Of a stretch of DNA of 64,000 nt, positions 29,657-52,271 are shown piece by piece; position 1 is the stretch's first letter; every line of letters begins with the position of its first letter. The notes under the pieces were generated by a model. That model made no database searches and had not been told where the DNA came from. It saw nothing but the letters and a program-made list of their open reading frames with translations. The position numbers and the translations under genes were made by a program. This DNA is from an uncultured Paracoccaceae bacterium (GTDB lineage Bacteria; Pseudomonadota; Alphaproteobacteria; Rhodobacterales; Rhodobacteraceae), in assembly GCA_947499715.1 (NCBI GenBank), contig CANMPL010000001.1, forward strand, positions 310,001 to 374,000, in the 5' to 3' direction.

Positions 29657-31915
29657 TCAACCCACCTTGCAGGCGGCAATCACCGCCATGTTCAGAATGT
29701 CGTTCACCGTTGAAACCGTGGAACAAATCTGGATCGGCTTATCAACGCCCGACAGGATTGGGCCAATCACAGTCGCCCCAGCCATTTCCTGCATCAGCTT
29801 GACGCTGATCGAGGCAGAGTGCCGCGCCGGCACGACAAGCACATTGGCCGGCCCGGTCAGTCGCTGGAACGGATAATTGGCCTGCGCCGCTGGGTTCAGG
29901 GCGACATCGACGGTCATTTCGCCTTCGTATTCGAAATCGACATTGCGGCCATCCAGAACCTTGGGCGCCTGATGCATCTTTTCGGCCCGCTCCGACACCG
30001 GATAGCCAAAGGTCGAGAACGACAGGAAGGCGACCCGCGGATCAAGGCCCAGATCGCGGGCAACAGAGGCACCCGCGGTGGCGATGTCGGCAAGGTCTTC
30101 GTCGTCGGGCCATTCATGAACAAGCGTATCCGCGATCAGCACGATTTTGCCATTGTGAAGCACGGCGGAAACACCAACAGCGCCATGCGCTGCATCCGCG
30201 TCAAAGACGTGGTTGATCAGTTCCAGCACATGCGCCGATTTGCGCGTGGCCCCGGTGACCATGCCATCAACATTCCCATGCGCGAGCATCAGCGAGGCAA
30301 AGACGTGCCGGTCCCGCGCGGCCATGCGATGCACGTCTTGCATGTCATAGCCCTTGCGGTTCAGACGGTCGTAAAGGAAGGCCTTATAAGTGTCTAAATT
30401 GGGAGTATTGGCGGCATTTATCACCTCAAGCTCTGCCACGGCGTCGGCCAGACCTTCGGTTGTCAGGGTCTCTGCCACCTCGGATTCGCGACCAACGACC
30501 AGCGCTTTGCCAAGGCCAGAGCGTTGATACATGACGGCAGCACGCAGCACGCGGGGATCATCGCCTTCGGCAAATAGCACGGTGGATTGCGCTTGCCGCG
30601 CGCGCGCGTTGAGGCTGCGCAGGATCGACTGGGTCGGATCCATGCGGGATTTGAGCGCCTCTTCATAGGCTTCCATATCGACGATAGGGCGACGGGCGAC
30701 GCCGGTTTTCATGCCAGCCTGCGCCACCGCCGTGGGGATCCGGTGGATCAGGCGGGGGTCAAAGGGGGTTGGGATGATGTAGTCACGGCCAAAGGTCAGT
30801 TTCTTGCCGTAGGCCATGGCGACTTCATCGGGCACATCTTCGCGGGCGAGGTTGGCGAGCGCGTGGGCGCAGGCGATCTTCATCTCGTCATTGATGGCGC
30901 GGGCGTGGATATCGAGCGCGCCGCGAAAGAGGTAGGGAAAGCCCAGCACGTTGTTGACCTGATTGGGGTAGTCGGAGCGCCCGGTGGCGACGATCGCATC
31001 GGGCCGCACGGCCTGGGCATCCTCTGGCGTAATCTCTGGGTCTGGGTTGGCCATGGCGAAAATAACAGGGTCTTTCGCCATGTTAGACACCATTTCCTGT
31101 GTCACGGCCCCCTTGGCAGAGACGCCCAGAAAGACGTCGCAGCCCTTCATCGCGTCATCAAGCGTCCGGGCCTTGGTGTTGGCGGCGTGGGCCGATTTCC
31201 ACTGATTCATGCCCTCGGTGCGGCCCTGATAGATCACGCCCTTGGTGTCGCACATGATGCAGTTGTCGTGCGCCGCACCCATGGATTTGACAAGTTCCAG
31301 ACAGGCAATCCCGGCGGCCCCTGCCCCGTTGAGGACGATCTTGACCTCTTCGATTTTTTTGCCGGTCATGTGCAGCGCGTTGATCAGGCCCGCCGCGCAG
31401 ATCACGGCGGTGCCGTGCTGGTCGTCATGGAAGACCGGGATGTCCATTTCTTCCTTGAGGCGCTGTTCGATGATGAAACACTCTGGCGCTTTGATATCTT
31501 CAAGGTTGATGCCGCCAAAGGTTGGGCCCATCAGGCGCACGGCGTTGCAAAAAGCGTCGGTGTCTTCGGTGTCGAGTTCGATATCGATGGAGTTCACGTC
31601 AGCGAACCGTTTGAATAGGACCGATTTCCCTTCCATCACCGGTTTAGAAGCCAGCGCACCGAGATTTCCGAGGCCCAACACGGCTGACCCGTTCGAGATA
31701 ACAGCAACGAGGTTACCTTTGTTCGTGTAGTCGTAAGCAGTCGACGGATCGGCGGCGATTTCTTCACACGGAATCGCGACGCCAGGGGAATAGGCCAGCG
31801 ACAGATCGCGCTGGGTCGTCATTGGCACAGTCGCCGCAATTTCCCACTTTCCCGGAGTAGGGTTGAGGTGGAACGCAAGCGCGTCTTCGCGCGAATGTTT
31901 TGTAGTGCCGGCCAT
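29657..31915 (-). CDS. maeB: NADP-dependent malic enzyme with phosphotransacetylase-like domain
   Basis: Oxidative decarboxylation of malate to pyruvate; 752 aa, the length of bacterial MaeB. The N-terminal malic-enzyme half shows SPGVAIPCEEIA near residue 40, the HDDQHGTA metal/substrate motif near 165 and an NADP fold with LNGAGAAGIACL near 195. The C-terminal half (from ~430) is a phosphate acetyltransferase-like regulatory domain. The ATG at 31915 is preceded by GGGAGGA. It is divergent from mutS. Confidence 0.94.
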   Translation of the reverse strand: MAGTTKHSREDALAFHLNPTPGKWEIAATVPMTTQRDLSLAYSPGVAIPCEEIAADPSTAYDYTNKGNLVAVISNGSAVLGLGNLGALASKPVMEGKSVLFKRFADVNSIDIELDTEDTDAFCNAVRLMGPTFGGINLEDIKAPECFIIEQRLKEEMDIPVFHDDQHGTAVICAAGLINALHMTGKKIEEVKIVLNGAGAAGIACLELVKSMGAAHDNCIMCDTKGVIYQGRTEGMNQWKSAHAANTKARTLDDAMKGCDVFLGVSAKGAVTQEMVSNMAKDPVIFAMANPDPEITPEDAQAVRPDAIVATGRSDYPNQVNNVLGFPYLFRGALDIHARAINDEMKIACAHALANLAREDVPDEVAMAYGKKLTFGRDYIIPTPFDPRLIHRIPTAVAQAGMKTGVARRPIVDMEAYEEALKSRMDPTQSILRSLNARARQAQSTVLFAEGDDPRVLRAAVMYQRSGLGKALVVGRESEVAETLTTEGLADAVAELEVINAANTPNLDTYKAFLYDRLNRKGYDMQDVHRMAARDRHVFASLMLAHGNVDGMVTGATRKSAHVLELINHVFDADAAHGAVGVSAVLHNGKIVLIADTLVHEWPDDEDLADIATAGASVARDLGLDPRVAFLSFSTFGYPVSERAEKMHQAPKVLDGRNVDFEYEGEMTVDVALNPAAQANYPFQRLTGPANVLVVPARHSASISVKLMQEMAGATVIGPILSGVDKPIQICSTVSTVNDILNMAVIAACKVG

Positions 31916-32040
31916 TTTCGTCCTCCCTGACGTGACGGTCAGAATGCGCGATGGGGCGCAAGGCTGCAACGGGTTCGTTTTCGACTTTCGTCGCTAACAT
32001 GGCCCGGTTAGGTTTGCCCGGCGCAATCCGGGGGGATTTG

Positions 32041-34677
32041 ATGAACGCTGTGACGCCGATGATGGCGCAATATCTTGAGTTGAAAGCCGGGTACCCGGAC
32101 GCCCTTTTGTTTTATCGGATGGGCGATTTCTACGAGATGTTCTTTGACGATGCGGTTGCGGCCTCTGCTGCGTTGGATATCGCGCTGACCAAACGCGGCA
32201 AGCATGACGGCAATGATATCCCGATGTGCGGTGTGCCAATTCATGCAGCCGAAGGGTATTTGCTGACGCTGATCCGTAAAGGATTCCGCGTCGCCGTCTG
32301 CGAGCAGATGGAAAGCCCGGCAGAGGCGAAAAAGCGCGGTTCAAAGTCCGTGGTAAAACGCGATGTGGTGCGGTTGGTCACACCCGGCACATTGACCGAA
32401 GATTCCCTGCTGGACGCACGGCGGCACAACTTTCTGGCGGCTTTCGCGCAAGTGCGCGATGACAGCGCCTTGGCTTGGGTCGATATCTCAACCGGGGCGT
32501 TTCACGTGATGACCTGTCCACGCGTGGCGCTGGCGCCGGAATTGGCGCGGTTGGCCCCGAAAGAAGTGATCGTTGCAGATGGAGAAGAGGGCGAATTCGC
32601 CGTGTTAGTGTCTGAATCGGGGGCCGCACTGTCGACTTTGGGTCGGGCAGCGTTTGACAGCACGGCGGGTGAAAAGCGGCTTTGTGCGCTGTATAAAGTC
32701 GGGTCGCTGGATGCGTTTGGGGCGTTCAGCCGGGCCGAGGTTGCCGCCCTTTCGGCGGTGGCCGAGTATCTGGATATCACCCAAAAGGGCAACCTGCCGC
32801 TGTTGCGACCGCCCGTGCAGGAAGGCCAACGCGCGGCGATGCAAATTGATGCGGCGACGCGGCGATCGCTTGAGCTGACACATGCGATGGCGGGGGCTCG
32901 GGCAGGGTCGTTATTGGCGGCTGTGGATCAGACTGTAACGGCGGGCGGTGCGCGATTGCTGGAAAGGCGGCTGTCGTCGCCATCTTGCGACCGCGCGACG
33001 GTGCAGGCGCGGCAAGATGCGGTGAGTTTTGCGTTTGAGCAGAGCCGTTGGACCGATGATTTGCGCGACTATCTGCGCGGCGTACATGATCTGGATCGCG
33101 CATTGTCCCGACTGGCGCTTGATCGCGGGGGTCCGCGCGACATGGCGGCGATCCGCAATTCGATTGAAGAAGCCTCGCGCATTTTCAGCGCACTGCCGGA
33201 GGAGTTACCAGAGGTCTTGGCAGAGGCAGGCAGTGCATTAACCGGGCACGATGAGCTGCTGACGCTTTTGGATGCGGCGTTGGTTGCCGAGCCGCCGCTG
33301 CTGGCGCGGGACGGCGGATTTATTGCCCCCGGATACGATGCGGACCTGGATGAGGCCCGGCAATTGCGCGACGAAGGGCGCGGCGTCATCGCCAGGATGC
33401 AGGCAGAGTTTGTGGAGCTGTCCGGTGTGTCGAGCCTGAAGATCAAGCATAATAATGTGCTGGGCTATTTTATCGAAACCACGGCAACCCATGCGGACAA
33501 AATGATGGCCCCGCCGCTGAACGAGACGTTCATTCATCGACAGACCACCGCCAATCAGGTGCGGTTCACGACGGTGGAGTTGAGCGAGATCGAAACGCGG
33601 ATATTGAACGCCGGGGGCAGGGCGCTTGAGATCGAAAAGAGGCTCTATTCCAGCCTAACTGGCGCGATTTTGGATCAAGCGGGACCGCTGGGTGCCCTGG
33701 CGCGGGGGCTGGCGGAGTTTGATTTGGCGACCGGTTTGGCGACTGTCGCACGGCGGGATGATTGGACCAAACCGGTGATCGACGACAGCCGCGCGTTTGA
33801 TATTCGCGGCGGGCGGCATCCGGTTGTTGAAGCGGCGCTGCAAAAGGACGGCGCACCGTTCGTTGCGAACGATTGCGACCTGTCGGAACAGTCCATTTGG
33901 CTGCTGACCGGTCCGAACATGGCGGGTAAATCGACGTTTCTGCGACAGAACGCGCTGATCGCGGTTTTGGCGCAGATGGGGGCCTGGGTGCCGGCAAAAG
34001 AGGCGCAGATCGGGATTGTGAGCCAGATCTTCAGCCGGGTTGGCGCGTCAGACGATCTGGCCCGTGGCCGGTCGACGTTCATGGTCGAAATGGTCGAAAC
34101 GGCGGCGATCTTGAACCAAGCGGACGACCGCGCGTTGGTGATTTTGGATGAAATCGGGCGCGGCACAGCGACATATGACGGTTTGTCGATTGCCTGGGCC
34201 ACGTTGGAACATTTGCACGATGTGAACCGGTGTCGCGCGCTGTTTGCCACGCATTATCACGAGATGGCGCAATTGGCGGGCAAGTTGGACGGCGTCGATA
34301 ACGCCACTGTCGCCGTCAAGGAATGGGACGGCGACGTGATTTTCCTGCATGAGGTGCGCAAAGGCACGGCAGACCGGAGCTATGGCGTACAAGTCGCGCG
34401 GCTGGCGGGGTTGCCGGACATGGTGGTCGAACGGGCCAAGGTTGTGTTGGATGCATTGGAAAAAGGCGAACGAGAAGGCGGGGCAGGGCGCAAGGCAGTC
34501 ATCGACGATTTGCCACTGTTTGCCGCAACGCCAGCGCCGCCGCCTGTGGCGACCAAACCATCGCAGGTCGAGGACGCCCTGAAGGACGTTTTGCCGGACG
34601 AATTGACGCCAAAACAGGCTCTAACACTGGTATATGAGCTACGCGCGCTGCTGGAGACGTCAGGCAACGGATCGTAG
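32041..34677 (+). CDS. mutS: DNA mismatch repair protein MutS
   Basis: Recognises mismatches and starts repair; 878 aa with the ATG at 32041, just after GGGGGG. The mismatch-probing motif GDFYEMF is near residue 29, and the ATPase has Walker [10 protein letters not shown] near 620, [12 protein letters not shown] near 698 and TATHYHE-like ATHYHEMA near 730. The C-terminal ~70 residues carry the MutS dimer/tetramer helix ([12 protein letters not shown]). Convergent with the YdcH-like gene (18-base overlap). Confidence 0.96.
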
Positions 34678-34902
34678 AATTGCGCTGATCTGATCCTTGA
34701 GCGTCATGCGGGTTTTGCGCATCTGTGCCATATGCAGATCGTCGGTTGGTTCAATGTCCGTTTCCGCACGGTGGATGGCGCGATTGATGCTGTGATATTC
34801 CTCTGCCAAGTTCGCGAAGTGCGGATTTGACTGCTTTAAGCCTTGCAGACGGTCGACCTGATCGGGAAATTCTTCGTGCAGTTCATGTGGAACGTGAGAC
34901 AT
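34660..34902 (-). CDS. YdcH-family (DUF465) small protein
   Basis: 80 aa, charged and helical, predicted coiled coil. The pattern [19 protein letters not shown]-like in the middle (here [12 protein letters not shown] near residue 27) and [10 protein letters not shown] near the end match the YdcH/DUF465 family, of unknown function. It follows the PPK2 gene by 13 bases. The ATG at 34902 gives the family length. Confidence 0.82.
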
Positions 34903-34915
34903 GGGGGATCCTTTG

Positions 34916-35767
34916 CTATTGGCCCGCTTTGCGGGTTTTTGGATGGAGAGAGGCGGCAAGAATGTGGTCCGATCCGTGAACGACCGTTTCGGCCTGATGG
35001 ACGATCAGGGGATCCGGGGGTTGGACGACGTCGGTATCCTTGTCGGGGTAGTCGAGTTGCGACAAAAAGTGACGCATCGCATTCAGCCGGGCGCGCTTTT
35101 TGTCGTTTGAGCGGATGACGGTCCAAGGGGCATCGGCGGTGTCTGTATAGAAGAACATCGCTTCTTTTGCCTCGGTGTAGTCGTCCCATTTATCCAAGCT
35201 GGCGCGGTCAATGGGCGAAAGCTTCCACCGCTTGAGCGGGTCTGTTTCACGAGATGCAAAGCGGCGACGCTGTTCGTCGCGCGTAACCGAAAACCAGTAT
35301 TTGAACAGTTTGATGCCGGACCGGGTGAGCATGCGCTCAAATTCCGGCGTTTGGCGCATGAATTCGAGGTATTCGGTGGGCTCGCAAAACCCCATCACCC
35401 GTTCCACACCGGCGCGATTGTACCAAGAACGGTCATAAAGGACGATTTCGCCAGCGGTGGGCAGGTGGCGGACATACCGCTGAAAGAACCACTGCCCGCG
35501 TTCTTCGTCGTTGGGTTTGTTGAGGGCAACCACCCGGGCGGCGCGGGGGTTGAGGTGTTCCATGAACCGCTTGATCGTGCCACCCTTGCCTGCGGCATCG
35601 CGACCTTCAAAGAGCAGTACGAATTTCTGCTCGGTTTCCTGCACCCAATGCTGCACCTTGAGCAGTTCGACCTGTAGGGCTGCTTTCTCGGCTTCGTACT
35701 CCGCTTTCTTCAGCTTGTCGGCGTAGGGGTAGTCGCCTTGATCGAAGGCGTGAGTCGGCTCGGTCAT
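34916..35767 (-). CDS. ppk2: Polyphosphate kinase 2 (PPK2 class I-like)
   Basis: Transfers phosphate between polyphosphate and nucleotides, 283 aa. The P-loop-type Walker A is FEGRDAAGKGGTIKRF near residues 53-68, Walker B is LYDRSWYNRAGVE near 108-120, and the lid Arg-rich region follows with RFASRETDPLKRWKLSP near 175-190. It is a single-domain enzyme. It leads a short operon with the YdcH-like gene. Donor and acceptor preference (ADP or GDP/AMP) is not certain. Confidence 0.92.
   Translation of the reverse strand: MTEPTHAFDQGDYPYADKLKKAEYEAEKAALQVELLKVQHWVQETEQKFVLLFEGRDAAGKGGTIKRFMEHLNPRAARVVALNKPNDEERGQWFFQRYVRHLPTAGEIVLYDRSWYNRAGVERVMGFCEPTEYLEFMRQTPEFERMLTRSGIKLFKYWFSVTRDEQRRRFASRETDPLKRWKLSPIDRASLDKWDDYTEAKEAMFFYTDTADAPWTVIRSNDKKRARLNAMRHFLSQLDYPDKDTDVVQPPDPLIVHQAETVVHGSDHILAASLHPKTRKAGQ
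34922..34940 (+). terminator. Possible plus-strand terminator inside the PPK2 3' end
   Basis: CCCGC (34923-34927) and GCGGG (34931-34935) pair around TTT and are followed by TTTTT on the plus strand. It lies 245 bases past mutS and within the last codons of the opposite-strand PPK2 gene. The stem is short; it may stop mutS read-through. Confidence 0.3.
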
Positions 35768-35842
35768 TGCGAAGCTCCTTTGGTTGAAAGGAGTCTCGCA
35801 GGGTGTGACGATTACCGCGTTGATTTAGGTCAAGTTTGCCTG

Positions 35843-36403
35843 TCAGGACGCAGGCATGGAGCTGACGCCGACCTGCGCGGGGCGCAGAAGGCGATCGTGC
35901 AACATGAAGCCTTCGGCCATCACTTCGAGGATGTGCCCTGATTTGGTGCCGGGCACGGGGGCCTCAAACATCGCCTGATGCAGCTGCGGATCAAATTTGT
36001 CGCCGACCTCTGGCACGATGGGGTCGATGCCGTGCTTTTTGAAGACGGTGATGAGTTCGCGCATCGTCAGCTCAATCCCTTCGAGAAGGGCGGCGTTTGC
36101 ATCGCCTTCCGCCTCGTGCGTGGATTTCAGCGCACGGCGCAGGTTGTCATAGACGGGCAGCAGATCGCGGGCGAGTTTTGAGCCGCCATAGTTTTCAGCC
36201 TCGCGCCGATCACGGTCCGCACGCTTGCGCACGTTTTCAGCATCTGCCAGCGCACGCATCCATTTGTCGCGAAACTCATCCCGCGCGGCCTCAATATCGG
36301 CGATCTGGGCCAGAACACCTTCTTCGCCAGCGGCCTCCATCTCGTCGCCTTCGGCAGCAAGTTCATCAAGGCTAAGCGGTTCGTCGAGTGGCTTGTCGGA
36401 CAT
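35843..36403 (-). CDS. grpE: Nucleotide exchange factor GrpE
   Basis: Co-chaperone that releases ADP from DnaK, 186 aa. The N-terminal acidic, coiled-coil region (residues ~10-75, DKWMRALADAENVRKRADRD) leads to the GrpE head with LARDLLPVYDNLRRAL near 85-100 and the C-terminal family signature (FDPQLHQAMFE, then LHDRLLRPAQVGVSS). The ATG at 36403 follows AGGAAG. It is downstream of hrcA by 13 bases, the standard heat-shock pair. Confidence 0.95.
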   Translation of the reverse strand: MSDKPLDEPLSLDELAAEGDEMEAAGEEGVLAQIADIEAARDEFRDKWMRALADAENVRKRADRDRREAENYGGSKLARDLLPVYDNLRRALKSTHEAEGDANAALLEGIELTMRELITVFKKHGIDPIVPEVGDKFDPQLHQAMFEAPVPGTKSGHILEVMAEGFMLHDRLLRPAQVGVSSMPAS

Positions 36404-36416
36404 GTACGTCTTCCTG

Positions 36417-37475
36417 TCAGGAGCGGTCGGCAATCATCTGGCCAACCCGCTGGGCGGTGTAATTCACGATGGGCACAATGCGCCCGTAGTTCAGGCGGGT
36501 GGGGCCAATGACACCAACCGCGCCGATAATCTTCTGGTCGGCGTTCATATAAGGAGAAACCACCAGAGAGGAACCCGAAAGTGAGAACAATTTGTTCTCG
36601 GACCCAATAAAAATGCGCACGCCTTCGCCCTGATCGGCCAGTTCAAGGAAACTGGCGATGTCCCGCTTGCGTTCGAGGTCATCAAAGAGGTTGCGGATGC
36701 GGTCCAGATCGCCTTCGGATTCGGGCAACAGGTTGCCGCGGCCGCGCACGATCAGGCGTTCATCCGCCGTGCCTTCATCGGCCCAAAGCGCGGCACCGGA
36801 TTGCACCAGTTCGGCCGCGAGCGTGTCGATTTCCTGACGACGCGATGCGATCTCACGCTCAATGATGGAACCAAGATCAGAGAGCGTCTGGCCTTCGGCG
36901 ATGGCGTTGAGGAAATTCGCAGCTTCGCGCATGGAAGACGGTGTCTGGCCAAGTGGTGGCGTGAAGATGCGGTTTTCGACGTGACCATCGGCAAAGACCA
37001 GCACAACAAGGGCGCGATCCGGGGCGAGAGACACAAACTCGATATGTTTGATAGGCGCTTCATGCTTGGGCGTCAGCACGAGGCTGGCACCATGTGTCAC
37101 GCCAGAGAGGGCGGAACCGACACGGTCGAGCAGGGTGGTGACGTCGTCTGAGTTGGAATCGAGCGTCTGGTCAATGCGGCTGCGATCCTCTCCTGACAGG
37201 TCATCAACTTCGAGCAGGCCATCAACAAACATACGCAGGCCCATCTGCGTCGGCATCCGCCCGGCAGAGGTGTGCGGAGAGCCGAGAAGGCCAAGATATT
37301 CGAGATCCTGCATCGTGTTGCGGATCGTCGCGGCACTGACCTGTTCGGACAGGGTACGGGTCAGCGTCCGACTGCCGACGGGCGCGCCGGTATCAAGATA
37401 GCCTTCGACCACGCGGCGAAAGACCTCGCGCGTGCGTGCATTCATGGCGTCAAGTTGCGGCGTTTCGTCTGTCAT
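36417..37475 (-). CDS. hrcA: Heat-inducible transcription repressor HrcA
   Basis: Repressor of class I heat-shock genes, 352 aa. The N-terminal winged helix spans residues ~10-80 (SRTLTRTLSEQVSAATIRNTMQDLE region), followed by the GAF-like and dimerisation domains and a C-terminal GVIGPTRLNYGRIVPIV motif typical of the family. No CIRCE inverted repeat (TTAGCACTC type) is visible upstream, so this operon may not be autoregulated by that element. It precedes grpE and is divergent from rph. Confidence 0.95.
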   Translation of the reverse strand: MTDETPQLDAMNARTREVFRRVVEGYLDTGAPVGSRTLTRTLSEQVSAATIRNTMQDLEYLGLLGSPHTSAGRMPTQMGLRMFVDGLLEVDDLSGEDRSRIDQTLDSNSDDVTTLLDRVGSALSGVTHGASLVLTPKHEAPIKHIEFVSLAPDRALVVLVFADGHVENRIFTPPLGQTPSSMREAANFLNAIAEGQTLSDLGSIIEREIASRRQEIDTLAAELVQSGAALWADEGTADERLIVRGRGNLLPESEGDLDRIRNLFDDLERKRDIASFLELADQGEGVRIFIGSENKLFSLSGSSLVVSPYMNADQKIIGAVGVIGPTRLNYGRIVPIVNYTAQRVGQMIADRS

Positions 37476-37498
37476 GGGTCACCTGATAGGGGCGAGGC

Positions 37499-37527
37499 AA
37501 TTAAAACCACCCGACCGGGAAGGTCAA
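37499..37527 (-). promoter_or_regulatory. Promoter of hrcA-grpE
   Basis: On the minus strand TTGACC (37527-37522) and TTAATT (37504-37499) are separated by 17 bases, a good sigma-70-type promoter 24 bases before the hrcA start codon. No heat-shock sigma-32 or CIRCE pattern was recognised. Confidence 0.55.
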
Positions 37528-37591
37528 TCGGGGTTGGCAAGTGAAGTTGGGGCGCGTAAGCCCAATGCAAATTTAGCCTTAGGAGTTTCCC

Positions 37592-38299
37592 ATGCGCCCA
37601 TCCGGCAGAGCGATTGACCAAATGCGTGACGTATCCATCGAAGTGGGCGTGACACGCCATGCCGAAGGGTCCTGCATGATCCGCATGGGCGATACGCATG
37701 TGTTGTGCACGGCGTCTGTCGACGAAAAGGTGCCGCCATTCATGCGCAATTCCGGGCTGGGCTGGGTGACGGCGGAATACGGGATGCTGCCACGGGCAAC
37801 GCATACCCGGATGCGGCGCGAAGCGAAGAATGGCCAAAGCGGACGGACGCAGGAAATTCAGCGGTTGATCGGGCGGTCATTGCGGGCTGGCGTGGACCGG
37901 GTGGCCCTGGGCGAGCGGCAGATCCAGATTGATTGCGACGTTATTCAGGCCGATGGCGGGACGCGTTGTGCGGCGATTACCGGCGGCTGGGTCGCGCTGA
38001 AACTGGCGGTGAACCAACTGATGAAGGCGGGCATTGTGACGAGCGACCCGCTTGTGGACCCGGTTGCCGCGATTTCCTGCGGGATCTACGCGGGCCAAGA
38101 GGTGCTGGATCTTGATTATCCAGAGGATTCCGAAGCTGGCGTCGATGGCAATTTCATCATGACCGGCGGCAAGCTGGTTGAGGTGCAGATGAGTGCCGAA
38201 GGCCAGACCTTTACCCGCGATCAGATGAATGGCCTTCTGGATTTGGCTGAAAAGGGCATAGGCGAGTTGAACGCCGTGCAAATGGCGGCTGTTGGCTGA
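37592..38299 (+). CDS. rph: Ribonuclease PH
   Basis: Phosphorolytic 3'-5' exoribonuclease that trims tRNA 3' ends, 235 aa (family ~238). Visible are [17 protein letters not shown] near residues 28-44, the phosphate-binding [15 protein letters not shown] near 93-107, and the catalytic-site [19 protein letters not shown] near 116-134. AGGAG precedes the ATG. First gene of rph-rdgB-hemW, each overlapping the next. Confidence 0.97.
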
Positions 38300-38907
38300 T
38301 GCGGCGGTTTGATGGGGATCAGCTGGTCGTTGCGACGCATAATCAGGGCAAGTTGGAAGAGATTGCCGACTTGCTGGCACCCTATGGCGTAAAGATCACG
38401 TCAAACACCGATCATGGGCTGCCGGAACCGGAAGAAACCGAGGATAATTTCGTCGGGAATGCGCGGATTAAGGCACATGCCGCGGCCAAGGCCACCGGGT
38501 TACCTGCATTGGCGGATGACAGCGGGATTGAGGTGGACGCATTGGGCGGAGCGCCCGGTGTGTACACCGCGGATTGGTCAGAAACGCCCAATGGCCGCGA
38601 CTTTGTAATGGCGATGACGCGGACATGGAACGAGCTGGAGGCGGTGAATGCGCCTTTTCCCCGGACCGCTCGGTTTTGCAGCACCTTGGTGCTGGCTTGG
38701 CCGGATGGGCATGATGAAGTGTTTCCCGGCGTGATGGATGGTCAGGTGGTGTGGCCAATGCGCGGCGACCAAGGACACGGCTATGATCCGATGTTTCAGC
38801 CCGATGGATATGACATCACCTGCGGCGAAATGGACCGCTGGGAAAAGAACAAGATCTCTCATCGGGCGGATGCCTTTGCCAAGTTGGTAAAGGGTTGTTT
38901 TGCCTGA
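38299..38907 (+). CDS. rdgB: XTP/dITP diphosphatase (HAM1 family)
   Basis: House-cleaning enzyme that hydrolyses non-canonical purine triphosphates, 202 aa. The substrate loop THNQGKLEEI is at residues ~13-22, the metal site in ADDSGIEVDALGG near 72-84, and the C-terminal GYDPMFQPDGY and SHRADAFAKL patterns complete the family. Its start overlaps the rph stop (TGATG). Confidence 0.95.
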   Translation: MRRFDGDQLVVATHNQGKLEEIADLLAPYGVKITSNTDHGLPEPEETEDNFVGNARIKAHAAAKATGLPALADDSGIEVDALGGAPGVYTADWSETPNGRDFVMAMTRTWNELEAVNAPFPRTARFCSTLVLAWPDGHDEVFPGVMDGQVVWPMRGDQGHGYDPMFQPDGYDITCGEMDRWEKNKISHRADAFAKLVKGCFA

Positions 38908-40057
38908 GGATTGGCAGGTCGCGGGCTTTGGCCTTTATCTGCATTGGCCGTTTTGTCAGGCCAAATGTCCCTATTGCGATTTTAACAGCCATGTCGTGAG
39001 TGCCATTGATCAAGATCGCTGGCAGCACGCTTATTTATCCGAGATTGCGCGCGTTGGCCGTGAAACCGAAGGACGCGTGCTGCGGTCGGTATTCTTTGGC
39101 GGTGGCACGCCAAGTCTGATGGAGCCAGAACTGGTCGCGACGGTTTTGGATCAGGTCCGTGCAACCTGGACCGTTGCGAATGACTGCGAAATCACGCTGG
39201 AGGCCAATCCGACGTCGGCAGAGGCCGGCCGGTTTACCGGTTACCGCGATGCCGGAGTAAACAGGGTATCTTTGGGTGTGCAGGCCCTGAATGATACGGA
39301 TTTGAGGGCCTTGGGGCGGCTGCATACGGCCAAAGAGGCGATGAACGCATTCGATCTGGCCCGTTCCGTGTTCGAACGGGTGTCGTTTGACCTGATCTAT
39401 GCGCGCCAAGGCCAAACGCTGGAGGCGTGGCGAGCAGAGCTTGGGCAGGCGTTGCATTTGGCGGTTGATCATCTGTCGCTATACCAACTGACCATCGAAG
39501 AGGGGACCGCATTTGGCGATCGGTTCGCTGCCGGAAAGCTGCGCGGCCTGCCGGATGATGATGTCGCGGCTGATATGTATTTTGCGACGCAAGAGATGTG
39601 CGAAGACGCGGGGTTTGGGGCCTACGAGGTGTCGAACCATGCGCGCCCGGGTCAGGAAAGCCGCCACAATCTGATTTACTGGCAATCAGGGGATTACGCC
39701 GGGATTGGTCCCGGTGCGCATGGCCGATTGACCTTGGGCGGAACACGGTGGGGGACTGACACGCCCCTTGGGCCAATGGCGTGGCTGCGTCAGGTCGAAA
39801 CGACGGGCTCGGGTGAGGGCGCACGGACCGTGATTGACCCGTTGGACCGCGTGACAGAATTTCTATTGATGGGTTTGCGCCTTGTTGACGGGGTATCAAT
39901 GGCGCGCTTGAGTGGTCTTGGTGGCGACATATTTATGAATAATATCAATGGTTTGATTGATAGCGGGCAATTGGTTATTGATGATGGCCGACTACAGGTA
40001 TCAAGTGACTACCGTCCTGTCTTGAACGCTGTTCTACGGGGCATCCTTGCCGATTAA
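38900..40057 (+). CDS. hemW: Radical SAM haem chaperone HemW
   Basis: 385 aa, HemN-like radical SAM protein thought to deliver haem, formerly annotated as coproporphyrinogen oxidase. The cluster motif is CQAKCPYCDFN (CxxxCxxC, residues ~18-28); GGGTPSLM follows near 63. The extra N-terminal Cys that true HemN oxidases carry is absent. The start is TTG and overlaps rdgB by eight bases. The 3' end overlaps convergent parB by four bases. Confidence 0.92.
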   Translation: MPEDWQVAGFGLYLHWPFCQAKCPYCDFNSHVVSAIDQDRWQHAYLSEIARVGRETEGRVLRSVFFGGGTPSLMEPELVATVLDQVRATWTVANDCEITLEANPTSAEAGRFTGYRDAGVNRVSLGVQALNDTDLRALGRLHTAKEAMNAFDLARSVFERVSFDLIYARQGQTLEAWRAELGQALHLAVDHLSLYQLTIEEGTAFGDRFAAGKLRGLPDDDVAADMYFATQEMCEDAGFGAYEVSNHARPGQESRHNLIYWQSGDYAGIGPGAHGRLTLGGTRWGTDTPLGPMAWLRQVETTGSGEGARTVIDPLDRVTEFLLMGLRLVDGVSMARLSGLGGDIFMNNINGLIDSGQLVIDDGRLQVSSDYRPVLNAVLRGILAD

Positions 40058-40941
40058 TCGCCGCTGAGCGTGCGGAGCAAATCATCAAGCTGTTCAAACG
40101 ATTTGTAGTTGATCGAAAGCTTGCCGCCCTCTTGCCCCGGCTTGTGGTCGATTGAGACTTTCATCTTGAGATGGGCGGACAGCTCATTTTCGATCTGGAC
40201 GGTATCGGCGTCTTTTGATCCGCCGCCTGCGGGGCTTCTTTTGGTGCCGGGCTGGGGCAGGCCGGTTTTTGCCAGTCGCTCGGCGTCCCGCACGCTGAGT
40301 TGCTTTTGGATGATGTGCTGGGCCAGCTTGGTGGCGTCGTCGTGACCAACAAGGGCGCGGGCGTGTCCGGCTGTTAGCTTGCCTTCGGTCAGCCACCCGA
40401 GGACGGGATCTGGCAGGTTGAGAAGCCGCAACAGGTTTGCGATATGGCTGCGGCTTTTGCCCAAGGCCTGCGCCATCTGGTCTTGAGTATGGCCAAAACG
40501 ATCCATCAGTTGGCGGTAGCCGGTCGCCTCGTCCACTGGGTTCAGGTCGGCACGCTGGATGTTTTCAATGATCGCAATTTCAAGGACTTCTGTGTCGTCG
40601 AAATCGCGGACCAGAACCGGCAGTTCGTGAAGCTGGGCCATTTGCGAAGCCCGCCAGCGGCGTTCGCCTGCGACGATTTGATAGAGATCGGCATCATTTG
40701 GATCGCGACGGACGATCAGGGGCTGGATGACCCCCTTTTCTTTGATCGACGCGGCGAGTTCCTTGAGCGCGTCATCATCAAAGGTGCGGCGCGGCTGATC
40801 GGGATTCGGTCGTATGCTGTCGATTGGAACGGTCAGATCCGCACGGCGCGGCGCAGTGTTTTCCGGTGCATCCGTCTGCACATCAGCCATCAGAGCAGAG
40901 AGACCACGGCCCAAACCACGGGGTTTTGTCGGTTTTGCCAT
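40054..40941 (-). CDS. parB: Chromosome partitioning protein ParB
   Basis: CTP-dependent clamp that loads at parS, 295 aa. The N-terminus KPRGLGRGLSAL is typical; the CTPase/ParB-N region contains VAGERRWRASQMA near residue 85; the central helix-turn-helix is HTQDQMAQALGKSRSHIANLLRLL-like near 150-172; a C-terminal dimerisation domain follows. It overlaps parA by one base. Two perfect parS sites lie 1.4 and 3.3 kb to the right of its start. Confidence 0.97.
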   Translation of the reverse strand: MAKPTKPRGLGRGLSALMADVQTDAPENTAPRRADLTVPIDSIRPNPDQPRRTFDDDALKELAASIKEKGVIQPLIVRRDPNDADLYQIVAGERRWRASQMAQLHELPVLVRDFDDTEVLEIAIIENIQRADLNPVDEATGYRQLMDRFGHTQDQMAQALGKSRSHIANLLRLLNLPDPVLGWLTEGKLTAGHARALVGHDDATKLAQHIIQKQLSVRDAERLAKTGLPQPGTKRSPAGGGSKDADTVQIENELSAHLKMKVSIDHKPGQEGGKLSINYKSFEQLDDLLRTLSGD

Positions 40942-41759
40942 TAGCTGACCTTTCTGATCGGTGTGGTGGATTTCTTGAGGATTTCTTGCGCCAAGGATCG
41001 ATAGGCCTGCGCGCCAGATGACGTTGGATCGTATGACAGCACGGGCATAGCAAAAGATGGCGCTTCGCTAAGGCGCACGTTGCGCGGAATCAGCGTCTGA
41101 AAGACCAAATCGCCCAGATTATCGCGGGCGTCCGCCTCAACTTGCTGCGATAGATTGTTGCGTTTGTCATACATGGTCAGCACGACGCCTTCGATCCGCA
41201 ACGCGGTGTTGGCGGATTGCCGGATCTCTCTGATCGTCAGCATAAGTTGCGAGAGACCTTCGAGGGCGAAGAACTCTGACTGGAGTGGGACAAGAACAGA
41301 ATCGGACGCCACCATGGCGTTAACCGTCAATATGTTGAGGGATGGTGGGCAATCTATCAATATGTAGTCTAGCTGATAGGTATCCATCGACAATTGCCGC
41401 AGAGCATCGTGCAAAAGGAAGCTGCGTTTTTCGTTCGAAATCAGCTCAATATCAGCGGAGCTCAGATCCGTTGTCGCCGGAATGATCAGCAGGTCATCGA
41501 CGTTTGAGGTTTGGATTGCATCGTCTGGTGTGGCGTCGCCAACGAGAAGGTCATAGGTGGTGACCTGACGCTTGCTGTGGTCAATGCCAAGTCCGGTCGA
41601 TGCGTTCCCCTGTGGGTCAAGATCGATCAAAAGCACGCGCGCGCCCGCTTCGGCCAAGGCAGCACCAAGGTTAATTGTGGTCGTGGTCTTACCGACGCCG
41701 CCCTTTTGGTTCGCAACCGCAATGATTTTGGCCCGATTTAAGCTAGTTTGCGGCGGCAC
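40941..41759 (-). CDS. parA: Chromosome partitioning ATPase ParA (Soj)
   Basis: Deviant Walker-type ATPase that moves origins apart, 272 aa. The P-loop is KGGVGKTTT at residues ~19-27, the switch/Walker B regions are LLIDLDPQGNAS near 45-56 and ILIDCPPS near 132. The start is GTG, preceded by AGGA nine bases upstream; the gene overlaps the rsmG end by 17 bases. Pairs with ParB and the two parS sites. Confidence 0.97.
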   Translation of the reverse strand: MPPQTSLNRAKIIAVANQKGGVGKTTTTINLGAALAEAGARVLLIDLDPQGNASTGLGIDHSKRQVTTYDLLVGDATPDDAIQTSNVDDLLIIPATTDLSSADIELISNEKRSFLLHDALRQLSMDTYQLDYILIDCPPSLNILTVNAMVASDSVLVPLQSEFFALEGLSQLMLTIREIRQSANTALRIEGVVLTMYDKRNNLSQQVEADARDNLGDLVFQTLIPRNVRLSEAPSFAMPVLSYDPTSSGAQAYRSLAQEILKKSTTPIRKVS

Positions 41760-42366
41760 GTTGGATATTCCTTAGCTCAAGAATGGCGCTATCGTTCGCC
41801 GTCAGACTTGTATGGGTGACAACATCAAACGACCATTTTGTTCGCGCGATGTCCAGTTCCTGATTATAGTTTCGGCCCTTATGCAGCAATGCAATCCCGT
41901 TTTCGTTCAAATGCCTATCGGCGTATTCCAGCAGGTCGGATACCGGCGCCAGGGCCCTCGCCGTCAGGGTGATGGCATCATATGAGGGGATATCTTCGAT
42001 CCGCTTTGCGATGACCTTGCCGGACACACCACAGTCCCGCAGTGCAGTCCGCAAAAAGGTCGCTTTGCGCTGATCACTTTCAATCATGACGATTTCAGCT
42101 TGGGGCTGAACCTCTGCCAGAATGATGGCGGCGACGATTCCCGGAAATCCACCGCCGCTTCCTATGTCGAGCCAAGTTCCTGCGCCGGGTGTGATGAATT
42201 GAAAAATCTGTGCAGAATCAAGAATGTGACGCTGCCAAAGATTGGAAAGGGCATCGCGAGAGACGAGGTTGATTTTGGGCGACCACTTTTGAACCAGCGT
42301 CTCAAACGCCTTCAACCTCTCAAATGTTTCACGTGAAACATCGACCGCGCCAGTCAAGTTCACCAT
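41743..42366 (-). CDS. rsmG: 16S rRNA m7G527 methyltransferase RsmG
   Basis: 207 aa. The SAM motif is WLDIGSGGGFPGIV near residues 65-78, and AEIVMIESDQRKATFLR near 92-108 and SYDAITLTARALAPV near 130-144 fit GidB/RsmG. The N-terminus contains a perfect parS within its codons (42325-42340). It is directly downstream of mnmG in the classic gid operon. Confidence 0.95.
   Translation of the reverse strand: MVNLTGAVDVSRETFERLKAFETLVQKWSPKINLVSRDALSNLWQRHILDSAQIFQFITPGAGTWLDIGSGGGFPGIVAAIILAEVQPQAEIVMIESDQRKATFLRTALRDCGVSGKVIAKRIEDIPSYDAITLTARALAPVSDLLEYADRHLNENGIALLHKGRNYNQELDIARTKWSFDVVTHTSLTANDSAILELRNIQRAAAN
42325..42340. other. parS: parS centromere site 1
   Basis: TGTTTCACGTGAAACA, a perfect 16-bp palindrome and exact match to the bacterial parS consensus. 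It lies in the 5' coding part of rsmG, 1.4 kb from the parB start and about 5.0 kb left of the candidate origin. It should be a ParB loading site. Confidence 0.95.
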
Positions 42367-44237
42367 CAGCTGACCTGCCTGCTATCAAGCCTTTTCAAGT
42401 ACCCGGAAAGGACCAAGAGTGCGGCGGGCGTCATGCCGTCAATACGGCGCGCTTGCGCCAGTGATTCCGGGCGCGCCGCGTTGAGCTTTTGAACAAGCTC
42501 TGCCGATAGGCCACCAATTTCAGCGTAATTCGTAGAGAAAGGTATGACCGTTGCTTCATCCTTAGCCATCGCGGCAATATCTTTCTCCTGACGGCGAATG
42601 TAATGCGCATAAAGAGCATCGTTTTTGATCTGTTCTGCAATTTTACGATCAATATCAGGGAGTTCAGGTCGAATCTGATAGAGCGCATCAAAACCAAAGT
42701 CGTTCAAGGTCAGCGCATCCAACGCTGTCCGTTTTGGGCCATCAACATTGAGTTTCGCCCCGGTCCCGGCAATTTCCCGCGCAGTCAGATCCACCTTAGC
42801 AAGAACTTCGTTTCCCTTTTTGATTTGCTCAGACTTCCGATTAAACGCAGCCCATCTGGCGTCATTCACGGTGCCAATGTCACGGCCCAGTGTCGTCAAC
42901 CGTTGGTCAGCGTTGTCTGCACGCAAAAGAAGCCGGAATTCTGCACGCGATGTGAACATGCGATAGGGTTCTGCCACGCCACGACCGACAAGGTCGTCAA
43001 CCATCACGCCAATGTAGCTGTCTTTTCGGCTGAACGTCACGCTGTCTTGGTCCCGGGCACGACGCACCGCGTTCACCGCGGCAACAAGCCCTTGGGCCGC
43101 GGCCTCTTCATACCCCGTTGTTCCATTGATTTGACCGGCAAGAAATAACCCGGGGCAAGACTTCAACTCCAACGACAGACGGAGTGCACGCGGATCAACG
43201 TAGTCATATTCGATCGCATATCCCATCTGCTCAATCTCAACGTTTTCAAGGCCATACATCGATCTGACATAGCGCTCTTGCACATCGGCCGGTAACGACG
43301 TTGAGATCCCGTTCGGATAGACCGTGTCTGTTGTCAGCCCCTCCGGCTCCAGAAAGACTTGATGCGAGTCCTTGTCAGCAAAGCGGACAACCTTATCCTC
43401 GATCGAAGGACAATACCGCGGTCCAACCCCGTCGATATGGCCACCATACATCGCAGAACGAGAGAGGTTTTCGCGAATGATATCATGCGTTTCGGCGTTT
43501 GTATGGGTGATCCCGCAAGAGATCTGATGCGCCATCGCGCCATCAGACATGAAGGAAAAGAGGCTGGGGTCAGTATCCCCCGGCTGCATTTCAAGCTTTG
43601 ACCAATCAATCGTGCGCCCATTTAAGCGAGGGGGCGTTCCCGTTTTCAATCGGCCCAGCGGTAGATCGAAACCTTCAAGCCGCTCTGCCATCGCAACGGA
43701 CGCTGCATCACCAACGCGCCCACCGGGGCGAGAGACGTCGCCGATATGAATGACACCTCGCAGAAACGTCCCCGTGGTCAGAACAACATTCCGTGTCGCA
43801 ATCTCTGATCCGTCGGCAAGGATCAGCCCTGTGACTTCATCATTCTCAACCCGGAGATCAGTCGCCTCGCCTTCGATGATTGAGAGGTTTTCCAGCTCAC
43901 TCAGCGCATTCTGAACATAATCGCGATACAAGACCCGGTCGGATTGCGCCCGAGGCCCACGAACAGCCGGTCCCTTCGTGCGGTTCAAAAGGCGAAACTG
44001 GATACCAGCTGCATCCGCCGCAAGCCCCATTAGCCCGCCTAATGCATCAATCTCGCGCACCAAGTGGCCCTTGCCCAGTCCGCCAATCGCCGGATTGCAA
44101 GACATGATCCCAATCGCTTCGCGTCGCAGCGTCACCAATGCAACAGACGCACCCATCTGCGCCGCAGCCCAGGCAGCTTCCGAGCCTGCATGCCCTCCGC
44201 CAACGATGACAACGTCAAAGTGTTTCACGTGAAACAT
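42366..44237 (-). CDS. mnmG: tRNA uridine-34 carboxymethylaminomethyl synthase subunit MnmG
   Basis: FAD-dependent partner of MnmE in wobble-uridine modification, 623 aa. The dinucleotide motif [10 protein letters not shown] is at residues ~13-22, the two MnmG signatures ([11 protein letters not shown] near 275, [16 protein letters not shown] near 370) are clear. The first codons are a parS site: the start codon and residues MFHVKH are written by the palindrome at 44221-44236. It lies two bases after mnmE. Confidence 0.97.
44221..44236. other. parS: parS centromere site 2, overlapping the mnmG start
   Basis: A second perfect TGTTTCACGTGAAACA. It spans the mnmG start codon (44235-44237) and the first codons, about 3.1 kb left of the candidate origin and 1.9 kb from site 1. 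ParB bound here would cover the translation start region of mnmG on the DNA. Confidence 0.95.
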
Positions 44238-46922: not shown

Positions 46923-47369
46923 CTAGAAAGGGCGCACGATCACCGCAATCACGATCACAAACATCAGCACGGTTGGCACTTCGTTCATCAACCGGTACGT
47001 CCGCCCACTGCGCGTATTGGTCCCGGCTGCGAACTCTTTGCGCCGTGCTCCCAGCCAGCCATGCGCCGCTGTCATTGCTACAACGGCAATAATCTTTGAC
47101 CAGCTCCAAACCGCGCCAAAATCAAAGGCACCCATCGCGATCAGCAACAGGCCACAGACCCAAGACACGATCATCGCCGGGTTCATGATCACCCGCAGCA
47201 GCTTCTCTTCCATGATCTGAAACGTCTGATCCAGCTCTGACCCGACTGTCGCCCGCTCTGCGTGGTAGACAAAAAGCCGGGGCAGATAAAACATACCAGC
47301 CATCCAAGATATCACCGCAATGATATGAAGCGCCTTGATCCATTCATAGTAAGGAAGCAGCCAGCCCAT
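46923..47369 (-). CDS. hemJ: Protoporphyrinogen IX oxidase HemJ
   Basis: Membrane oxidase of haem synthesis, 148 aa, four predicted membrane helices. The family features are the N-terminal WIKALHIIAVISWMAGMFYLPRLFVYH (His and Arg likely haem/substrate contacts, residues ~11-37), the Met-rich middle, and GWLGARRKEFAAG near 105. It replaces HemG/HemY in most alphaproteobacteria. It flanks the candidate origin and is read away from it. Confidence 0.93.
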   Translation of the reverse strand: MGWLLPYYEWIKALHIIAVISWMAGMFYLPRLFVYHAERATVGSELDQTFQIMEEKLLRVIMNPAMIVSWVCGLLLIAMGAFDFGAVWSWSKIIAVVAMTAAHGWLGARRKEFAAGTNTRSGRTYRLMNEVPTVLMFVIVIAVIVRPF

Positions 47370-47773
47370 GTGATCCTCTCATCCGACGTCTCGTTCTTCC
47401 TTAATAAAGAAAGAAAGAAAAGAGAGATGATGATGATTATGGGTCGCCCGAATCTGGGGATTATCATTTCATACGCAGGTTTATCCCCAGCAGGAGGGGT
47501 ACCTATGCGCAGCTAGAATATTTTTGCCAAACCGTGGAACCTATAAAAAACAAAGACTTACCGGTAAACTGCAAAAACTATTTTTGCTCGCCGCATCTTG
47601 ACCTGCGAAAACGTCCAAAGTTCTACACAGCCTCACTTATCCTTATCCCAAGTTCATAACTTGTTAAGGAATCACCCGAGGCATGTGGCTTATACCCCTC
47701 GCTTGCAATCGGCCCCGGTTCATCCCAAACCTGTCCCGCGTCCACACCCAAGGTTATCCCGGGAACTATCCAC
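47370..47773. other. oriC: Candidate chromosomal replication origin (oriC)
   Basis: The only gene-free stretch above 300 bases (404 bp), between divergent hemJ and maf. DnaA-box-like 9-mers: TTATCCCCA (47481-47489, 8/9), CTATCCACA (47766-47774, 8/9), TTATCCTTA (47637-47645, 7/9), TTATCCCAA (47643-47651, 7/9) and, inverted, TGGGGATTA (47455-47463, 7/9) and TGTGGCTTA (47684-47692, 7/9). AT-rich direct repeats TATTTTTGC occur near 47519 and 47579. A purine run spans 47407-47440, and GANTC sites lie at 47450 and 47669. The neighbouring maf-aroE-coaE-dnaQ block flanks oriC in many alphaproteobacteria. Confidence 0.7.
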
Positions 47774-48373
47774 ATGGCAGAACCGATTATCCTGGCCTCT
47801 GGCTCTGAAATCCGCGCAACGCTTTTGCGCAATGCGGCGATTGAATTCACCACGCGGGTGGCGCGCGTTGACGAAGAAGCGATGAAATCTGCCCTTCAGG
47901 CCGAATCTGCCAGCCCCCGCGATATTGCCGATGCTTTGGCCGAGATGAAAGCGATGCGCGTTGCCGCGAAACACCCAGAAGCGCTCGTGATTGGCTGCGA
48001 TCAGGTGCTCGCACGTGACAAGGACATCCTGTCAAAACCGCAAAACCAGCAAGAGGCGTTTGACCAGCTCACTACCCTGCGTGGACGTCCGCATCAGTTG
48101 CTCTCCGCTGCCGTGATCTTTGGTGAAGGCAAACCGCTGTGGCGGCATGTCGGCGTTGTCCGGCTCCATATGCGCGATGCCTCGGATACCTATCTGACCG
48201 ACTATGTCGCCCGCAATTGGGATGAAATCCGCCATTGCGTCGGCGCTTATCAGCTTGAAGGCGAGGGCGCGCGACTTTTTCACCGTATTGAAGGAGATTA
48301 TTTCAATGTCCTCGGACTGCCACTATTAGAGATCTTGTCATATCTAACCTTGCGCGGAACACTGGCAGGATGA
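47774..48373 (+). CDS. maf: Maf-like nucleoside triphosphate pyrophosphatase
   Basis: 199 aa, Maf/Ham1-type house-cleaning enzyme. The N-terminal signature ASGSEIRATLLRN is at residues ~7-19, followed by RVDEEAMK near 33 and the IGCDQVLARD motif near 73-82 with the catalytic Asp. The sequence class (YhdE/YceF) and preferred nucleotide cannot be told. A DnaA-like box ends at its first base. First of maf-aroE-coaE-dnaQ, all overlapping. Confidence 0.92.
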   Translation: MAEPIILASGSEIRATLLRNAAIEFTTRVARVDEEAMKSALQAESASPRDIADALAEMKAMRVAAKHPEALVIGCDQVLARDKDILSKPQNQQEAFDQLTTLRGRPHQLLSAAVIFGEGKPLWRHVGVVRLHMRDASDTYLTDYVARNWDEIRHCVGAYQLEGEGARLFHRIEGDYFNVLGLPLLEILSYLTLRGTLAG

Positions 48374-51506: not shown

Positions 51507-51611
51507 GGGCTTTCCTTATTGTGACGGGCGGGGCAGTGGACTTGGCCCCCTTGCCACCCTACATAAGGATCGAATGAGGCGGTTTCCATGCCGCGACAGA
51601 AAGAGGCCACG

Positions 51612-52271
51612 ATGAACGCACCTATCCTTCAGCTTTTGGTCCTAGCGGCAATCGCGATTTTCCTGATCGTGCGCTTGCGGTCCGTGCTTGGCACCCGCGA
51701 GGGTTTTGAAAAGCCGCCGATCCCCAAGCAATCGGGTGGCGCGGTGGATCGTCGCGGGCTTGAGGTCATTGAAGGTGGCGTTGATCACGACATCGCAGAC
51801 CACGCACCTGAAGGCAGCGATATCGCTAAGGCCTTGGCAGAGATGAAGCGGATTGACCCGTCCTTCAACGTCACAGAATTTCTGCAAGGTGCCCGCGGCG
51901 CCTATGAAATGATCTTGATGGCGTTCGAGCGCGGTGACCTGTCAGAAGTGACGCCGTTCATGTCCGAAGACGTATTTGAGGCATTCAGCAGTGTTGTTGA
52001 TCAGCGCCAAGCCGAAGGTCTGACGATTGAAGCACAGTTCGTTGGCATCAGCGATCTGGGCCTGAACGATGCCACTCTTGATTCCGCCACCAAAGAGGCC
52101 GAGTTGACCGTGCGTTTCACCGGCGAAATGACATGGCAGGTGCGCGACAACGCAGGCGATGTGATCGAAGGCAACGATACAGAGATCAAGCGGCAAAAGG
52201 ACGTCTGGACCTTTGCACGCGTCATGGGCAGCGACAACCCCAACTGGCGGCTGGTTGCAACGGACGCATGA
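51612..52271 (+). CDS. timA: Tim44/TimA-family membrane-associated protein
   Basis: 219 aa. An N-terminal membrane segment (residues ~4-20, LLVLAAIAIFLIVRLR) is followed by RSVLGTREGFEKPP and a C-terminal Tim44-like domain (residues ~75-215) with FLQGARGAYEMI. Alphaproteobacterial TimA is the relative of mitochondrial Tim44. The ATG at 51612 follows AGAGG; an earlier ATG at 51588 is less likely. It overlaps mltA as ATGA. Confidence 0.9.
   Translation: MNAPILQLLVLAAIAIFLIVRLRSVLGTREGFEKPPIPKQSGGAVDRRGLEVIEGGVDHDIADHAPEGSDIAKALAEMKRIDPSFNVTEFLQGARGAYEMILMAFERGDLSEVTPFMSEDVFEAFSSVVDQRQAEGLTIEAQFVGISDLGLNDATLDSATKEAELTVRFTGEMTWQVRDNAGDVIEGNDTEIKRQKDVWTFARVMGSDNPNWRLVATDA

Follow-up and report, generated by a model that had tools for sequence, protein, structure and literature searches.

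Where does this chromosome begin to replicate? The DNA analysed here (the window) is a 64-kb stretch of contig C1 of a Rhodobacteraceae draft genome, and its preliminary description had singled out the gap between hemJ and maf as a candidate origin. According to DoriC, as cited in a paper on Ketogulonicigenium vulgare, the Rhodobacteraceae conserve an oriC that adjoins maf (PMC4793288); a narrow open-literature search combining oriC, 'maf gene' and DnaA returned that paper alone. Ori-Finder has been used to predict oriC in 101 genomes of the family, with a manual choice by the GC-disparity minimum, the local G+C minimum and the proximity of parAB, and in eight strains oriC was not placed unambiguously (PMC6699656).

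We predict, with a probability of about 95%, that the hemJ–maf gap is the chromosomal oriC of this genome. This reading of the preliminary description is supported by a DnaA-box cluster, a conserved architecture, a single profile match per genome, parAB and parS, the maf flank and the rule published for the family. Because such a maf-adjacent oriC is already in print for the Rhodobacteraceae, the present gap is another case of this known origin type: it directly precedes maf, and parAB is nearby.

The hemJ–maf gap and its conservation

The gap and its immediate neighbours are as follows.
46923 to 47369, minus strand: hemJ, left neighbour (UPF0093, PF03653 by Pfam)
47370 to 47773, no strand assigned: predicted oriC, the hemJ–maf gap (from the DnaA-box cluster, conservation and profile match)
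47774 to 48373, plus strand: maf, right neighbour (PF02545 by Pfam)

The intergenic region spans 404 bp between divergently read genes, and the boundaries first given for it were exact: the minus-strand gene hemJ starts at 47369 and the plus-strand gene maf at 47774. Its G+C content is 47%, compared with 58.6% for the whole window. Pfam confirms HemJ, Maf, ParB and Rho among the neighbours of the gap; the remaining gene names, including aroE, coaE and dnaQ, were assigned by eye from translations. A crude open reading frame (ORF) caller returned two longer gaps (51507-52132 and 23007-23480), both mostly covered by long ORFs that the caller had omitted for overlap (51588-52271 and 22901-23494), so the hemJ–maf gap is still the longest gene-free stretch in the window, as originally claimed.

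We fetched 80 loci with a Maf relative, nearly all carrying Rhodobacteraceae-type names; two Sphingomonas and several more are the exceptions. In 75 relatives the positions of both genes could be assigned. The hemJ–maf gap measured 391-455 bp in 71 of them, and these 71 were aligned with the window to give 72 gaps (median length 408 bp; 60 of 72 within 400-415 bp). No hemJ–maf distance was obtained in five of the 80 loci: in L026, L055 and L067 maf lies near a contig end and hemJ was unmatched, and in L036 and L063 rho is present, hemJ was unmatched and boxes are kept between rho and maf. Four further relatives (L075, L077, L079 and L080; Oceanicella, Neomegalonema and two Sphingomonas) were left out of the alignment; in them hemJ and maf stand 2.1-2.5 kb apart, hemE adjoins hemJ, and the box cluster follows hemE. 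Elsewhere the order rho-hemJ-gap-maf-aroE-coaE-dnaQ holds wherever a relative's locus is long enough.

The preliminary description had remarked that hemE, the usual neighbour, is missing here. This is true, and it is explained by the position of hemE on contig C2 in this genome and between hemJ and the box cluster in the four more distant relatives. The absence of hemE beside the gap is common to the close relatives.

A sequence-only profile was built from the left 95 positions of the gap in the 71 relatives, with the window excluded. Searching the window's own genome at a cut-off of E 10 gave one match, C1:357399-357490 (E 1.5e-16; 150 of 302 candidates scored). In a survey of 149 other family genomes, which may include suppliers of profile sequences, 112 had one match each, and 37 were unmatched at E 0.001 under a stricter filter, with 27 candidates scored per genome throughout. 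Thirty matches, among them the window's own, were inspected for position: each adjoins maf, and in 24 hemJ is there as well. An oriC should occur once per chromosome, and one copy is what was found among the candidates scored; because these were part of the first-look candidates in each genome, a single match is not full proof of a single copy.

DnaA boxes, candidate unwinding tract and IHF-type site

Alignment of the 72 gaps gave the following elements; for the conserved boxes the counts are relatives out of 71, and the opposite-strand control was 0 at these sites.
47396 to 47446, plus strand: candidate DNA unwinding element, an AT/purine-rich tract that holds GATGATGATGAT and the conserved core GATGATG (from stability, AT content and alignment)
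47455 to 47463, minus strand: DnaA box beside the tract, TAATCCCCA (family TAATCCACA); at most one mismatch in 37, at most two in 50
47469 to 47477, plus strand: decayed DnaA box, TCATACGCA (family TTATCCnCA); at most one in 6, at most two in 31
47481 to 47489, plus strand: DnaA box TTATCCCCA, itself with one mismatch; at most one in 26, at most two in 55
47548 to 47560, plus strand: IHF-type site AAACAAAGACTTA, one mismatch to WATCAANNNNTTR, a conserved core in the AT-rich middle
47621 to 47629, plus strand: weak DnaA box TTCTACACA; at most one in 8, at most two in 43
47637 to 47651, plus strand: two overlapping weak boxes, TTATCCTTA and TTATCCCAA; at most two in 18 and 19, respectively
47754 to 47762, plus strand: decayed DnaA box TTATCCCGG (family TTnTCCACA); at most one in 9, at most two in 23
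47766 to 47774, plus strand: DnaA box CTATCCACA, whose final base is the A of the maf ATG; at most one in 57, at most two in 59

Seven 9-mers in the gap lie within two mismatches of TTATCCACA. All six DnaA-like sites named at the outset are present, and the seventh, the two-mismatch box at 47621-47629, was absent from that list. One listed site, at 47684, aligns with a box in none of the 71 relatives. Seven is the top count among the 404-bp stretches of the window (20-bp steps), where 0.8 would be expected from the window's density; 2,000 dinucleotide shuffles of the gap had a mean of 1.2 sites, with one shuffle reaching seven, and its two one-mismatch sites were reached by 5 of the 2,000. Across the 771 kb of C1 the gap is likewise the top 400-bp window for boxes with up to two mismatches (7; next 6 and 6). 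With up to one mismatch its two boxes only put it level with two further 400-bp windows, and all five of the perfect boxes on C1 lie outside it. Perfect boxes are absent from the gaps of the window and of 29 of the 71 relatives, and at least one occurs in the other 42. This resembles the family origins surveyed previously, in which DnaA boxes often need two mismatches to be found (PMC6699656).

A DnaA-box matrix trained on 207 boxes (at most one mismatch) from relatives, with the window excluded, gave the gap the top score on C1 (78.2; next 57.0). In three relatives the same matrix also ranked the gap first within 400 kb (200 kb to either side), although the gaps of these three had fed the matrix. 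Two further 400-bp windows of C1 hold six DnaA-box-like sites. One, at C1:525.85 kb, lies ∼4.5 kb from dnaA and may serve in DnaA titration or regulation; the second, at C1:590 kb, has the higher matrix score (57.0).

An easily melted, AT-rich element should adjoin the boxes of an oriC, and at the level of duplex stability the gap appears to contain one. No 40-bp segment of the 64-kb window is less stable than the one starting at 47400, and with 60-, 100- and 200-bp windows the gap is third, third and second least stable. Across the 72 gaps the AT fraction is 0.85 in the bin at 47400. The aligned TTAATAAATA/purine tract ends in GATGATG, kept in 51 of 72, and the purine run noticed earlier (47407-47440) is present. 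In L025, L056 and L081 (Paradonghicola and Marivivens) the gap lacks ∼14 bp between its GAT tract and the first box, which therefore nearly abuts the tract.

The core of the IHF-type site, CA[AG]N4TT[AG] (47551-47560), occurs at the aligned place in 52 of the 72 gaps. Random windows as controls gave a mean of 4.8 and a maximum of 11, and shuffles at the same place a mean of 2.8 and a maximum of 6. In the oriC of Escherichia coli the unwinding tract is followed by a first box, then by the IHF site and more boxes. The gap shares this order of elements; its flanking genes and its sequence differ.

Other motifs of the gap fared less well. Copies of TATTTTTGC, described earlier as direct repeats, are present at 47519 and 47579, but they are conserved in none of the 71 aligned relatives and we rejected them as functional repeats. 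The two GANTC sites pointed out in the same account (47450 and 47669) are also present, but without enrichment: the 72 aligned gaps average 1.40 GANTC per gap compared with 1.71 in shuffles, and a role for CcrM at these sites was dropped. The window is also consistent with the search rule for the basal unwinding system with DnaA-trios (PMC8287927), with the box TAATCCCCA, a spacer of 14 and five NAN triplets. Under the rule given for that system (a box, a spacer of up to 16 and at least three NAN triplets; PMC8287927), the family has a mean of 3.54 triplets compared with 3.30 in tract shuffles (s.d. 0.10; 24 of the 72 gaps, eight shuffles), and the best match uses the left box in 14 of 72 gaps. 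As the family is only slightly above the shuffles, we do not claim a DnaA-trio.

Could the gap be only the divergent promoter region of hemJ and maf, placed under DnaA control, and no origin? The two genes do diverge from it, and most relatives (57 of 71) have a box with at most one mismatch across the start codon of maf. We consider this extremely unlikely, given that the near-fixed length of 408 bp, the IHF core and one profile match per genome are not expected of a promoter, and that the site persists beside rho without a hemJ match (6 of the 30 inspected loci; L036 and L063).

parS sites, GC skew and competing positions

A chromosomal origin at the gap was also expected, in the preliminary description, to have parAB and parS close by. 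The window contains the following.
40054 to 41759, minus strand: parB and parA (ParB domains by Pfam; parA by eye from its translation)
42325 to 42340, no strand assigned: parS 1, a perfect TGTTTCACGTGAAACA, inside the start of rsmG (named by eye)
44221 to 44236, no strand assigned: parS 2, perfect, inside the start of mnmG (named by eye)

Both perfect parS thus stand beside the gap, at 5.0 kb (42325) and 3.1 kb (44221), and parAB is in the window as expected. Beyond these two, the genome (4.02 Mb) has no further match to the 14-base parS core with up to one mismatch. The reversed core, used as a control, gave four places with up to one mismatch in the same genome, and for this reason only perfect matches carry weight. 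All nine relatives searched, chosen for long contigs, have 2-3 perfect parS each, all within ∼8 kb of maf by coordinate. The proximity of parAB was a criterion in earlier origin predictions for the family (PMC6699656), and another study places parAB near ori in nearly every alphaproteobacterial genome it analysed, with some exceptions that include Rhodobacterales (PMC8116508). OriC1 of Rhodobacter sphaeroides has been imaged via ParB (PMC6315104).

Each parS falls within a coding sequence, among the first codons of what we read as rsmG or mnmG, and so constrains the start of that protein.

GC skew was computed for C1 (771 kb, containing 5,000 N), one of the 44 contigs of the draft, and for 400 kb around the gap in five relatives. 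The expectation that the skew minimum would fall near 47.6 kb of the window held only roughly, as the C1 minimum lies 49 kb to the left of maf. Could the origin instead be close to C1:297-310 kb, which is 0-13 kb to the left of where the window begins, with the hemJ–maf gap simply in its vicinity? The cumulative minimum at 309,142 points that way, as does a strand-corrected regression on third codon positions (crude ORF calls), which places the switch at 297-310 kb and strongly disfavours 357.6 kb. Yet this interval holds none of the listed top DnaA-box windows, and both parS adjoin the hemJ–maf gap instead. In five relatives with the same gap the minima fall at +14.0, +54.5, +53.2, −0.4 and +20.7 kb relative to maf. 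Three of these relatives are largely collinear with the region out to −60 kb, and all three have their minima on the opposite side of the gap; a fourth has its minimum inside the gap, 379 bp before maf. An origin at C1:297-310 kb is therefore very unlikely. Since the relatives' minima occur on both sides of a largely collinear region, the C1 offset looks like scatter, not like a consistent second site. The simplest account would be a single origin with noise around it caused by gene orientation and turnover.

Within the window, positions 31000-41000 have a positive GC skew on the side where a negative one is expected, and rph, rdgB and hemW (named by eye) in this segment run toward the predicted origin; the direction of rph and hemW is kept in relatives. 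One relative carries the −60 to −79 kb block at +102 to +123 kb, in reversed orientation. This exchange across the predicted origin is of the kind expected for replication-linked inversions.

In many other bacteria the origin lies near dnaA, and dnaA is on the same contig here, at C1:521 kb. With 50-kb arms, C1 has its strongest skew switch at 560 kb, which is 39 kb from dnaA, and the cluster of six sites at C1:525.85 kb is also near. With arms of 100-300 kb, by contrast, the best split moves to 300-320 kb; the dnaA-side cluster is the weaker one, with a matrix score of 48.3 against 78.2 for the hemJ–maf gap; and the dnaA region is without parS. We regard an origin near dnaA as barely conceivable. 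Within 150 kb (crude ORFs), genes co-directional with the assumed forks number 149 of 254 when forks start from the gap; the corresponding figures are 123 of 242 for a start at 309 kb and 134 of 268 for one at dnaA.

Proposed mechanism and the box at the maf start codon

In our model the hemJ–maf gap would serve as a DnaA-dependent chromosomal origin. DnaA would bind the boxes that flank the tract (47455, 47469 and 47481) and the right array (47621-47651, 47754 and 47766), and an IHF-type protein could bend the AT-rich middle at 47548-47560 and so bring both groups of boxes together. The resulting complex would melt the tract at ∼47396-47446, after which the helicase would be loaded. Two forks would then depart, one via hemJ, rho, mnmE, mnmG and parAB and the other via maf, aroE, coaE and dnaQ, and ParB would capture the new copies at the two parS sites 3-5 kb away. 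We infer DnaA binding, IHF bending, melting and firing at the gap from the arrangement of sequence elements.

The gap boxes at 47455 and 47481 carry TCCCCA, which we take to be the W-box core of Caulobacter Cori. The CtrA motif is TTAAN7TTAA. Unlike Cori, the window's gap has no perfect match to this motif, the best being a site with one mismatch at 47653, and we do not claim CtrA control of this origin. It also differs in that hemE is not adjacent (it is on contig C2) and in that the family's boxes follow TTATCCACA, not the G-box. What the gap shares with Cori of Caulobacter crescentus is an alphaproteobacterial origin built from weak DnaA boxes (PMC4468827).

Perfect TTAAN7TTAA sites do occur in relatives, anywhere in the gap in 14 of the 72 (shuffles average 1.4). 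In 10 of the 72 such a CtrA-like site lies at the same aligned place, 36-37 bp before maf (L020, L038, L040, L047, L049, L050, L057, L058, L066 and L070). These records carry the names Roseobacter, Sulfitobacter or Ascidiaceihabitans, and as several are near-identical the ten cases are not independent.

As the preliminary description had it, a DnaA-like box (47766-47774) ends on the first base of the maf start codon. Eleven of the 72 aligned rows have a maf start that was placed by extrapolating the protein match and that is no ATG; when ATG rows only are considered, the box is present with at most one mismatch in 56 of 60 relatives. An SD-like triplet stands upstream of maf in 52 of 61 ATG rows, so the box may fill the spacer before the maf ATG. 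It may be an origin box that the maf start simply tolerates. More tentatively, and with considerable doubt on our part, the last oriC box might in this family be fixed in the spacer between the ribosome-binding site and the start codon of maf (TTATCCAC followed by ATG), such that its filling by DnaA would directly switch maf, with the CtrA-like site 36-37 bp before maf adding cell-cycle control in the Roseobacter/Sulfitobacter-like subset. If true, geometry would couple the start of replication to the maf-aroE-coaE-dnaQ run, whose final gene is of a proofreading type, and the CtrA-like subset would contrast with a review that describes such origins as lacking CtrA sites.

The gap resembles the predicted oriC of other Rhodobacteraceae in family, maf flank (PMC4793288) and the use of parAB proximity as a criterion. 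It differs from the published predictions, as far as the available text of these sources goes, in that a box map, an IHF site, an unwinding tract and a start-codon box are given here, and for another strain. A narrow open-literature search for a maf start-codon box or a conserved IHF site in Rhodobacteraceae found none.

For this organism, the gap fixes the likely zero point of replication in a draft genome. For the family, the profile marks the corresponding place without recourse to skew in about three quarters of the sampled genomes (112 of the 149 others), which is useful because skew is unreliable there, with offsets of up to 54 kb and eight strains left unplaced in an earlier survey (PMC6699656). 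The conserved IHF-type site, the GATGATG tract and the start-codon box add specific parts to an origin family that, in the sources available, is known mainly from predictions.
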